From a virus, in the IMG/VR virus record IMGVR_UViG_3300009508_000040, positions 1 to 31,032 of that record: 31,032 bases of DNA. One strand, given 5' to 3'. A program made the translations under genes and the position numbers. A model generated the notes under the pieces. That model searched no databases. It was not told the origin of the DNA and worked only from the letters and a program-made list of their open reading frames with translations. This document shows positions 10,280 to 30,880 of the stretch, in pieces. Numbering within the stretch: position 1 is the first letter of the stretch; each line of letters begins with the position of its first letter.

Positions 10280-10678
10280 TTATGTTCTCCATTTAGCGTT
10301 ATCTTCAAATAGAAAGTGTACTAGACCATTCTCTATCCGAAGCAATCTGTTGCGATTTACTATGTTTTCACTTACAGGCAAATGTATCAACTCTAGTGTT
10401 GTTTGCCCTGTTTGTTTGTAATTAAAATAATTTCGGTATGAAGCTACTGCAATATATTCTGCAGCTTCTTTATTACTATAATTTCTTCGTTCCGCGAGTA
10501 ACTGTCGAGGGTTTAGTAAAAAACTATCACCGACAAAAGACTTCCCAAAATATTTATAGGTCTTGTCTTTTCTACTAGCAGGGATTCTTTTATAAGTTAA
10601 TAAATGAACGATAGTAAGTATTGAAGTTGAATCTCCTTTGGTCTCACTATTTATCTTTTCCCAATTATATTTTATCAT
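10280..10678 (-). CDS. Hypothetical phage protein upstream of SSB
   Basis: A 132-residue basic protein with no recognised family; helix-rich, with many Tyr and Asn, and no transmembrane segment. The only ATG in the first third is at 10678, and no in-frame GTG or TTG was found nearby. That ATG lies only two bases after the TATAAT of promoter P1, upstream of where its +1 should be. The protein may therefore be translated from read-through transcripts of the helicase operon, or from an unusual start. It shares an operon with the SSB gene and abuts it (TAA then ATG). Confidence 0.65.
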   Translation of the reverse strand: MIKYNWEKINSETKGDSTSILTIVHLLTYKRIPASRKDKTYKYFGKSFVGDSFLLNPRQLLAERRNYSNKEAAEYIAVASYRNYFNYKQTGQTTLELIHLPVSENIVNRNRLLRIENGLVHFLFEDNAKWRT

Positions 10679-26613: not shown

Positions 26614-26643
26614 ATTATACTAAATTTTGAGAGCGGTGTCAAG
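26614..26643 (-). promoter_or_regulatory. Promoter P6, sigma70-type, leftward, leaderless
   Basis: TTGACA at 26642-26637, a 17-base spacer and TATAAT at 26619-26614. +1 is at 26607, the A of the downstream ATG. The -35 overlaps the stop codon of the preceding oxygenase-like gene. Confidence 0.88.
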
Positions 26644-29364: not shown

Positions 29365-29796
29365 CTAGCCTATTTTAATCGTCTTAGGCTTCTCTTCGTC
29401 AGGTGTGTTGACCTGAAGGTTAATAACTAACATACCATTTTTGAATCCCGCGTCGGCTATCTCTACCCAATCGCCCAAAGTGAAAATTCTGCTAAAGGTT
29501 TTACCACTAAGTCCTTTATGGACATAGCTTTCCTCTCCAGAATCAAGACCTTGCTTTTCTGTTCCTTCTATAGTAAGTTTATTCTTGTGTTGCTTGATGT
29601 CGATATCATCTTTTGACCAACCTGGCAGAGCCATTTCAATACGGTAGCCCGTATCTCCAACTGCTACTAAGTTGTATCTTGGATAGTTAGTAAGAGGTGA
29701 ACTTTCATTTCTCCTAGTTAATTCCTTATTCAAGCGATCGAACCCGACAAATAATTTGTCAAAGTCGTTAAAGTTTAATGCTGATAATCCAGTCAT
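29365..29796 (-). CDS. Small heat shock protein Hsp20 (IbpA-like)
   Basis: An ATP-independent holdase of the alpha-crystallin family. The 143-residue product has an N-terminal arm (FDKLFVGFDRLN), the core from PRYNLVAVGDTGYRIEMALPG to SRIFTLGDWVEI, and a C-terminal segment ending in PKTIKIG. It is known from T4-like cyanophages and other marine phages. The start is ATG 29796 with AGGAG seven bases upstream; the longer frame (MPQGSH...) is rejected. Its mRNA is expected to start at P7, 226 bases upstream, leaving a structured leader. Confidence 0.93.
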   Translation of the reverse strand: MTGLSALNFNDFDKLFVGFDRLNKELTRRNESSPLTNYPRYNLVAVGDTGYRIEMALPGWSKDDIDIKQHKNKLTIEGTEKQGLDSGEESYVHKGLSGKTFSRIFTLGDWVEIADAGFKNGMLVINLQVNTPDEEKPKTIKIG

Positions 29797-29812
29797 TGGT
29801 TTTCTCCTATTT

Positions 29813-29829
29813 GCGTCCTTTCGGCACGC
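29813..29829 (-). promoter_or_regulatory. GAAA-tetraloop hairpin upstream of hsp20 ribosome site
   Basis: On the minus strand GCGTGCC and GGACGC form six pairs with one bulged G, closing on the GNRA loop GAAA. It ends four bases before the AGGAG (29808-29804) of hsp20. It could tune or stabilise translation initiation. Confidence 0.5.
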
Positions 29830-29867
29830 GCTGTGAGACCCTTGCGGCATCTCGGTTATTATAATAC

Positions 29868-29993
29868 TATGTCTAACAAAACCCGACCACTGGTGGAAAG
29901 CGGTGCTCCTGCCTCTAAACCCTCGGAATGATTAATTCCTACTCGTGCCAGACATATGAGGGGTTTTGATTCGGGAGTCCCCACAACTCCGCA
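29868..29993 (-). ncRNA. Candidate structured RNA in hsp20 leader
   Basis: A 126-base non-coding stretch, visibly richer in GC than its flanks, transcribed leftward from P7. Visible pairings are CAAAACCC (29968-29961) with GGGTTTTG (29884-29877), eight pairs; TATGTCT (29956-29950) with AGACATA (29874-29868), seven pairs crossing the first; GGAAT/ATTCC at 29925-29939; and a CC-ACC/GGT-GG hairpin at 29883-29896. The two long helices interleave, so they form a pseudoknot or are alternative folds. The third hairpin competes with one strand of the first. I recognise no known RNA family. Confidence 0.45.
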
Positions 29994-30010
29994 TAAATTA
30001 ACATAAATTA
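29992..30010. repeat. Tandem nine-base direct repeat
   Basis: CATAAATTA occurs at 29992-30000 and again at 30002-30010, between P7 and the structured leader. A possible protein-binding pair of sites, or chance in AT-rich DNA. Confidence 0.4.
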
Positions 30011-30028
30011 TTTAAAATTTATACTACT

Positions 30029-30058
30029 ATTATAACAAAATTTACCACCCTTGTCAAG
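30029..30058 (-). promoter_or_regulatory. Promoter P7, sigma70-type, leftward (hsp20 operon)
   Basis: TTGACA at 30057-30052, a 17-base spacer and TATAAT at 30034-30029; predicted +1 at 30022. No gene starts until hsp20 at 29796. Confidence 0.88.
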
Positions 30059-30208: not shown

Positions 30209-30525
30209 TTGACATCTCCTCTTGGTATCACTTGATACGCACCTTTGTTGAAGGCAGGGGCAACAGTATATTTCTTACTAATCTCGAGTCTTTCCTCTTT
30301 TGTTAAGGTAGTTTTAGTACTCGTAGATTTACTACTGGTGGAGCTGGAGGGAATCGAACCCACGACCTCATGCTTGCAAAGCACGCGCTCTCCCGACTGA
30401 GCTACAGCCCCTTTAAAATTTTTGGTTTCCTGAGCTACGAAGTCAGGTCTCTTTGCTTTCTTCCATGCGTTTGTTTTTCTTTTGCGTCCGCTTGGTGAAT
30501 AACGCATACTACAATTTATAATCAT
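30193..30525 (-). CDS. Conserved phage protein whose reading frame runs through a tRNA
   Basis: A 110-residue frame. Both ends look genuine. The start MIINCSMRYSPSGRKRKT has AAGGAA and a promoter (P8). The end (KKYTVAPAFNKGAYQV then RGDVKWIGK) resembles the C-terminus of small basic phage proteins. Residues 39-64 are the translation of the embedded tRNA-Ala gene, in phase, without a stop. No ATG, GTG or TTG follows the tRNA until near the C-terminus, so the tail can only be made by translation through the tRNA region. Without the insert the protein would be about 85 residues. If the tRNA is cut out of the transcript the protein is not made, so the two products compete. Confidence 0.6.
   Translation of the reverse strand: MIINCSMRYSPSGRKRKTNAWKKAKRPDFVAQETKNFKGAVAQSGERVLCKHEVVGSIPSSSTSSKSTSTKTTLTKEERLEISKKYTVAPAFNKGAYQVIPRGDVKWIGK
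30336..30411 (-). tRNA. tRNA-Ala (anticodon TGC), with encoded CCA
   Basis: A complete 76-base cloverleaf on the minus strand. The acceptor stem GGGGCTG/CAGCTCC has one G-U pair. The D arm GCTC/GAGC is present. The anticodon stem CGTGC/GCATG carries loop TTTGCAA, anticodon TGC. The T arm GTGGG/CCCTC has loop TTCGATT with a single T-T mismatch in the second pair. The discriminator is A and CCA is encoded. It sits inside a protein-coding frame on the same strand. Codon supply or, less likely, an attachment site are possible roles. Confidence 0.95.
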
Positions 30526-30652: not shown

Positions 30653-30880
30653 ATGATAAAAACTAATAGATGGACTGATAAGCAAGTCAAAGAACTAAAG
30701 AAGTTCTACGGCCATGTGCCTGTAGATACTCTCGCTAGCATGTTAAATAAAACACCTTCAGCTGTTACGAGCAAAGTACACTATCTTCGGAAAAGAGGGT
30801 GGACTTTTGACAGCAAGAAAATAGACTCAAAAGAGTTTGCTCGTCAATGTAAAGTATTTTATGGCGACAACATGGCATGA
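30653..30880 (+). CDS. Small SANT/GcrA-like HTH protein
   Basis: A 75-residue protein made of one unit: RWTDKQVKELKKFYG, then DTLASMLNKTPSAVTSKVHYLRKRGW. The layout (aromatic start, short helix, basic recognition helix ending in VHYLRKRG) matches the units in the proteins at 19380-20105 and 22903-23355 and resembles the N-terminus of GcrA. It should bind DNA. It is the first gene of the rightward operon from P9, its mRNA is predicted to be leaderless, and its stop overlaps the bS21 ATG as ATGA. Confidence 0.75.
   Translation: MIKTNRWTDKQVKELKKFYGHVPVDTLASMLNKTPSAVTSKVHYLRKRGWTFDSKKIDSKEFARQCKVFYGDNMA

Follow-up and report, generated by a model that had tools for sequence, protein, structure and literature searches.

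ROSE-like RNA thermometers lie in the leaders of the same gene family as the phage hsp20 leader described here and, like it, have stable hairpins 5' of the Shine-Dalgarno sequence. However, ROSE elements lack a large pseudoknotted core, and the hsp20 leader lacks both the U(U/C)GCU motif and a conserved Shine-Dalgarno hairpin; the motif occurs within 30 nt of the Shine-Dalgarno sequence in 0 of 57 leaders. The T4 gene 32 mRNA leader reportedly contains an H-type pseudoknot, and is a phage mRNA leader too; in the hsp20 leader, the knot is accompanied by a conserved three-way junction and by two GNRA hairpins. The manA RNA is likewise a marine and phage leader RNA, and its description (PMC2864571) reports it from 5' UTRs of genes including ibpA chaperones in marine sequences. 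Its consensus and layout are unlike the hsp20 leader core, and its covariance model (RF01745) matched 0 of 9 records of the hsp20-leader phage group at E up to 10, whereas the positive control was recovered (1/1; cyanophage P-TIM40, 141.7 bits, with manA standing before talC). A small heat-shock protein with a 5' UTR as its regulatory target is known in Escherichia coli: according to PMC10474464, IbpA represses itself via its own 5' UTR, and its R93 is needed for self-repression and not replaceable even by Lys.

A previous reading of the present locus (hereafter the sequence-only reading) had recognized in the leader neither ROSE nor another known family, and our searches agree. With Rfam 15, the window (the whole 31,032-nt stretch of viral DNA analyzed) yielded tRNA only, and the leaders of the window and of two relatives (L062 and L081), scanned as that reading had proposed, gave only implausible sub-threshold matches at E up to 10. 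Among tmRNA and tRNA genes, ARAGORN found only a tRNA-Ala in the window (30336-30411). No published report of the hsp20 leader RNA was found in searches of an open-access library without preprints.

Position and distribution of the leader

The hsp20 leader is on the minus strand, and extends for 226 nt from its inferred start (about 30022) to the ATG at 29796-29794. Both the promoter and this spacing, which the sequence-only reading had given, were confirmed in the sequence. The features are as follows.

30029..30057, minus: probable promoter, by its consensus, TTGACA-17 nt-TATAAT
30003..30022, minus: H1, hairpin at the inferred transcript 5' end; changes on both sides at 7/7 pairs
29860..30000, minus: core as modelled (R1); sole match in the window, 132.9 bits
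29974..29990, minus: S1, hairpin GGAGU / ACUCC with loop UGUGGGG; 89.6% of cells paired, double changes at 2/5 pairs
29960..29982, minus: S2, loop-to-tail pairing of loop GGGG (29982-29979) with CCCC (29963-29960), forming an H-type pseudoknot over the A-rich strand AAUCAAAA
29946..29956, minus: P1 5' strand, UAUGUCUGGCA; near-invariant, paired with 29878-29868 in 90.4% of cells
29940..29945, minus: J1/2 junction strand, CGAGUA; 5/5 scored columns (29944-29940) invariant in 58 leaders
29925..29939, minus: P2, hairpin GGAA / UUCC; 99.6% of cells paired, double changes at 2/4 pairs
29905..29924, minus: J2/3 strand, with GAGGG and AGGAG; 10/21 scored columns invariant
29886..29904, minus: P3, hairpin with invariant CCACC in its loop; 100% of cells paired, double changes at 5/5 pairs
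29879..29885, minus: J3/1 strand, CGGGUUU; mean column homozygosity 0.90
29868..29878, minus: P1 3' strand, UGUUAGACAUA; variation on one side only at 8/11 pairs, on both sides at 1
29854..29867, minus: A+U-rich linker from core to hairpins; variable, homozygosity 0.60, the deletion in L100 begins here
29835..29853, minus: H7, GAGAU-[bulged G]-CC-GCAA-GG-GUCUC; 93.8% of cells paired, double changes at 5/7 pairs
29813..29829, minus: H8, GCGU-[bulged G]-CC-GAAA-GG-ACGC; 90.1% of cells paired, double changes at 4/6 pairs
29804..29808, minus: Shine-Dalgarno sequence AGGAG, by its sequence; no conserved helix over it
29365..29796, minus: hsp20, 143 aa; PHROG 432 Hsp20, E 1.7e-37

An alternative opening of the hsp20 frame, the ATG at 29850 of the window, lies inside H7 and is absent from most aligned relatives. 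The hsp20 gene is the first of a long co-directional run, within which perfect TTGACA-TATAAT promoters stand at 26642, 23392, 20917, 16341 and 10709 (minus strand). The tRNA-Ala(TGC) gene, also on the minus strand, lies upstream of the leader promoter, and on the opposite strand (30653-30880) is a small gene matching PHROG 323, a D5-like transcriptional regulator.

The hsp20 leader is real and conserved. A search of IMG/VR with Hsp20 gave 74 loci: in 65 the contig extends as far as the promoter and contains the core, two are cut inside the leader with the core still visible, and in seven the upstream DNA is too short for judging the core. A search with the core pattern added more distant members, whose Hsp20 is only about 50% identical. 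In a set of 81 IMG/VR contigs (80 from the pattern search, among the matches listed, together with L140), hsp20 lies within 900 nt downstream of the core in 80, and a TTGAC/TATAAT promoter precedes the core in 80; the sole promoterless contig, L088, is itself truncated. The core is in single copy, with exactly one match to the model in each of 16 related records. In 15 relatives it is 79-93% identical to that of the window, and their Hsp20 is from 97% down to 50% identical. The window DNA polymerase is 44-45% identical to those of Aeromonas and Proteus phages, which we take to be T5-like; by this polymerase, the core-bearing phages probably form one T5-like marine group.

A looser pattern produced extra matches (L230, L232-L235, L237, L238 and L240-L242), mostly G+C-rich, which we read as chance and left out of the counts. 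The single pattern match in a genome collection (L141), whose flanking DNA has no leader anatomy, was also judged to be chance. A DNA similarity search of the phage collection gave short promoter-like or chance matches only.

Fold of the leader

By folding energy alone, the leader does not stand out from chance (z = -0.39): 70 of 200 shuffles folded equally well, and relatives were therefore needed to settle the structure. The claim of structure is carried by conservation and compensatory changes, not by folding energy. Fifty-six distinct cores were aligned by sequence alone, and the model tested (S1, P1, P2 and P3) was paired in 93.6% of cells, against 84.9% in shuffled and 33-49% in slid alignments (at most 48.8%), with 115 cells changed on both sides against 33.4 expected. 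The sequence-only reading had called the leader structured, a view that a lack of compensatory changes in the paired arms among relatives would overturn; many such changes were found, and they support the helices, although the folding energy does not. In a home-made, tree-aware covariation test following the idea of R-scape (58 leaders, 100 null alignments), which also scores as significant 29851-29848, two positions of one arm, E is 0.04 or lower for pairs in P3, H7, H8 and S1, and no pair of P1 or P2 has E below 1. The covariation of P3 is the strongest in the whole leader. At the 5' end, H1 is paired in 80.7% of cells against 68.3% shuffled, and its stem has at least 6 pairs in 51 of the 58 leaders.

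As judged from the aligned sequences, the 11-pair P1 closes a three-way junction with the hairpins P2 and P3. The seven-pair helix of the sequence-only reading (TATGTCT, 29956-29950, with AGACATA, 29874-29868) is present letter for letter and conserved, but its extent had been underestimated, since it is part of the 11 pairs of P1. Exchanges in P1, for example from G-U to G-C, occur beneath a nearly invariant 5' strand, and the 3' strand changes register in a few lineages. G-U pairs at two positions of P1 (37/56 and 32/56 rows) show that the RNA is the hsp20-sense strand. The least variable parts of the leader include the P3 loop and the junction strands, which are unpaired; a binding site would be expected to show such near-invariance, and a simple hairpin would not.

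The sequence-only reading had also proposed that an eight-pair helix, CAAAACCC (29968-29961) with GGGTTTTG (29884-29877), crosses the seven-pair one. It is in the window letter for letter, but has double changes at 0/8 pairs and is paired no more than shuffles are. As a long helix, it is absent from L081, L084, L086, L087, L092, L112, L131, L138 and L142, and in lineages of the L081 type it is reduced to runs of 4-6 pairs, most of them in a different register. The alignment supports another knot, which joins the S1 loop to the strand just upstream of P1. The S1 pair 29989-29975 has E 0.04 in the tree-aware test. In the window itself S2 has only four pairs, GGGG/CCCC, and across lineages it is compensated (GAUGG/CCAUC, GUCGG/CCGAC, GUAAGG/CCUUAC), so that a loop pairs with a downstream strand, with compensation, as in an H-type pseudoknot. 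Of 49 distinct leaders, 30 have loop-to-tail Watson-Crick runs of at least 5, where permutation gives a mean of 8.1 and a maximum of 16; the count is rough, as the finder mis-assigns S1 in, for example, L024, L041, L044, L053, L059, L072 and L138. Conservation extends to the A-rich strand that links S1 and S2; in H-type knots such a strand lies in a groove.

Where a single GNRA hairpin had been noted before AGGAG, there are in fact two, H7 and H8. In each, a base is bulged on the 5' side, and two pairs lead from there to a GNAA-type loop; together they are paired in 92.1% of cells against 75.0% shuffled, with 141 double-change cells against 36.1 expected. Of all 57 leaders, 51 have H7 and H8 both passing a strict rule, and six more have a second hairpin with a small internal loop. 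In 10 of the 51, belonging to one set of lineages, both loops are GAUAA.

Across the leaders, no conserved helix lies over the Shine-Dalgarno sequence. Its mean unpaired probability in 57 leaders, as predicted without pseudoknots, is 0.49, 0.53 and 0.60 at 5, 37 and 50 C, respectively; with P1 forced in folding, its access is unchanged (0.51 to 0.49). When 45 nt of coding sequence were added, the AUG was predicted to be largely paired (unpaired probability 0.05 to 0.12). Pairing of the Shine-Dalgarno sequence with the P3 loop or S1 was found in single leaders only, and we rejected it as not conserved. A terminator scan had one hit, P3 itself, followed by CGGGTTTT, and showed no terminator-like site fitting attenuation between core and hsp20. 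As for a riboswitch, a conserved receptor-like core is present in the leader, but no expression platform, either a terminator or a Shine-Dalgarno switch, was found.

hsp20 leaders and Hsp20 proteins of other phages

For comparison, 13 hsp20 regions of other phages were taken from 506 matching records. The core model had no match in these 13 regions. A hairpin of the same bulged geometry stands before the Shine-Dalgarno sequence in 12 of the 13 (for example, GUGGAU-g-CC-UUCG-GG-GUCCAC), and UCGCU, the ROSE motif, lies opposite the Shine-Dalgarno sequence in 11; the E. coli ibpA leader, too, has UCGCU before the Shine-Dalgarno sequence. In the last 60 nt of the T4-like cyanophage leaders (L256-L258, L262-L267, L270 and L271), a stable bulged hairpin is followed by CUCGCUU facing AAGGAG, with a bulged G, and the Shine-Dalgarno sequence is mostly predicted to be paired at 15-45 C. 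These leaders look like two-hairpin ROSE-type thermometers; a targeted search of the open-access literature listed no report of such leaders in T4-like cyanophages. Pseudomonas phage Cassandra (L269) has, before hsp20, the bulged hairpin GAGU-g-CC-AUAUU-GG-GCUC and a degenerate UUGCG motif. Counted over both strands of P-SSM4, the bulged hairpin has 16 occurrences, which is no excess over shuffles (13 to 21), and only two of the 16 stand before a ribosome site, one being that of hsp20; thus, leaders of this phage do not carry it in general.

As for the protein, the position of the Arg93 required in IbpA is Lys in all nine aligned members of the hsp20-leader phage group, and K98 is lost; the aromatic Y34 and R97 positions are retained. 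Of the 13 Hsp20s from other phages, 11 do have Arg93.

Possible roles of the leader

One relative bears on what the core may do without hsp20. In L100, the promoter and the core (121.7 bits) are kept and H7, H8 and hsp20 are gone; compared with L092, its DNA lacks everything from a point shortly past P1 up to where hsp20 ends. A gene that is presumably endolysin-like, by its motifs, follows the deletion. Since L100 lost hsp20 yet kept the core, the core can outlive hsp20, in this single case. Further hsp20-less relatives were sought via 80 endolysin loci (L150-L229), and the core was found only in L150, which is the L100 contig itself; the sequence of the closest relative of L100 (L151) ends too early to judge. 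After hsp20, L092 has a strong, terminator-like inverted repeat of an A-tract and a T-tract (10585-10640, minus strand), and L100 has a remnant-like inverted repeat without a T-run.

The explanation that we prefer, with about even confidence, is that the hsp20 5' leader represents a structured RNA family not described before, which most likely regulates hsp20 in cis by binding a ligand or protein. A strong promoter would give a transcript that opens with hairpin H1; the core would come next, with its H-type pseudoknot (S1/S2 and the A-rich strand) beside the P1 three-way junction, and then, in order, the A+U-rich linker, the two bulged GNRA hairpins, the open Shine-Dalgarno sequence and hsp20. 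The junction core is a putative receptor for a small molecule or for a phage or host protein, and H7/H8, next to the ribosome site, are a putative protein operator or docking element. Instead of ending transcription, binding may alter how efficiently the hsp20 mRNA is translated or how long it survives; both the binding by the leader and the direction of regulation are what we infer. The position of hsp20 next to the core in 80 of 81 contigs, among the matches listed, argues for action in cis. However, the leader shows no expression platform, the support for P1 comes mostly from one-sided changes, and the core of L100 was kept after the loss of H7, H8 and hsp20, so that the core may have another target.

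The best rival to action in cis is a processed small RNA, an option that the sequence-only reading had raised and that L100, with promoter and core but no hsp20, keeps alive. The core would be cut from the leader in the A+U-rich linker, and hsp20 translation left to H7/H8 and the open Shine-Dalgarno sequence. Core and hairpins are indeed separate modules with a variable linker between them, the L100 deletion starts in this linker and removes hsp20 with both hairpins, and the Shine-Dalgarno sequence is not under conserved pairing; nevertheless, hsp20 is missing in only one of the 81 contigs, among the matches listed, and no terminator follows the core, and we consider a free small RNA unlikely. 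It is slightly less likely still that the leader is a passive element whose knots and hairpins shield the mRNA from nucleases and hold the ribosome site open with no sensing: a 5' hairpin at the inferred transcript start and stable hairpins beside the Shine-Dalgarno sequence would suit this role, but a stabilizer would not need near-invariant unpaired strands.

By analogy with E. coli IbpA, the twin bulged hairpins might be an operator for Hsp20 itself. The recurrence of their geometry in 12 of 13 other-phage hsp20 leaders, the retained aromatic Y34 and R97 positions and the self-repression of IbpA via its 5' UTR, as established in PMC10474464, are consistent with this; the change of R93 to Lys in 9/9 aligned Hsp20s of the group and the loss of K98 make it improbable. 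The heat-sensor idea of the sequence-only reading found no support: a ROSE-type thermometer would fit the downstream small heat-shock gene, but with U(U/C)GCU near the Shine-Dalgarno sequence in 0/57 leaders, no conserved helix over it and an unpaired probability rising only from 0.49 (5 C) to 0.60 (50 C), it is very improbable. HK022 put is a processive antitermination element, and hsp20 opens a long co-directional run that such an element could serve; still more improbable is this explanation, as there are further perfect promoters inside the run, and a terminator-like hairpin stands right after hsp20 in 6 of 57 relatives under a strict rule, and in L092 by eye.

Few structured leaders are known from marine phages, and the hsp20 leader adds to them a well-supported RNA fold, with a covariance model ready for use; it also gives a testable handle on the control of phage chaperones during infection. 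That unrelated phages share the bulged hairpin in front of hsp20 points to a regulator in common, which is directly searchable. More tentatively, the leader could be a new class of phage RNA, in which a pseudoknotted junction senses an infection signal (a metabolite or host factor) and sets chaperone output, or is freed as a small RNA that acts on a target of its own; the twin bulged hairpins would then be an hsp20 operator type common to T5-like and T4-like marine phages.
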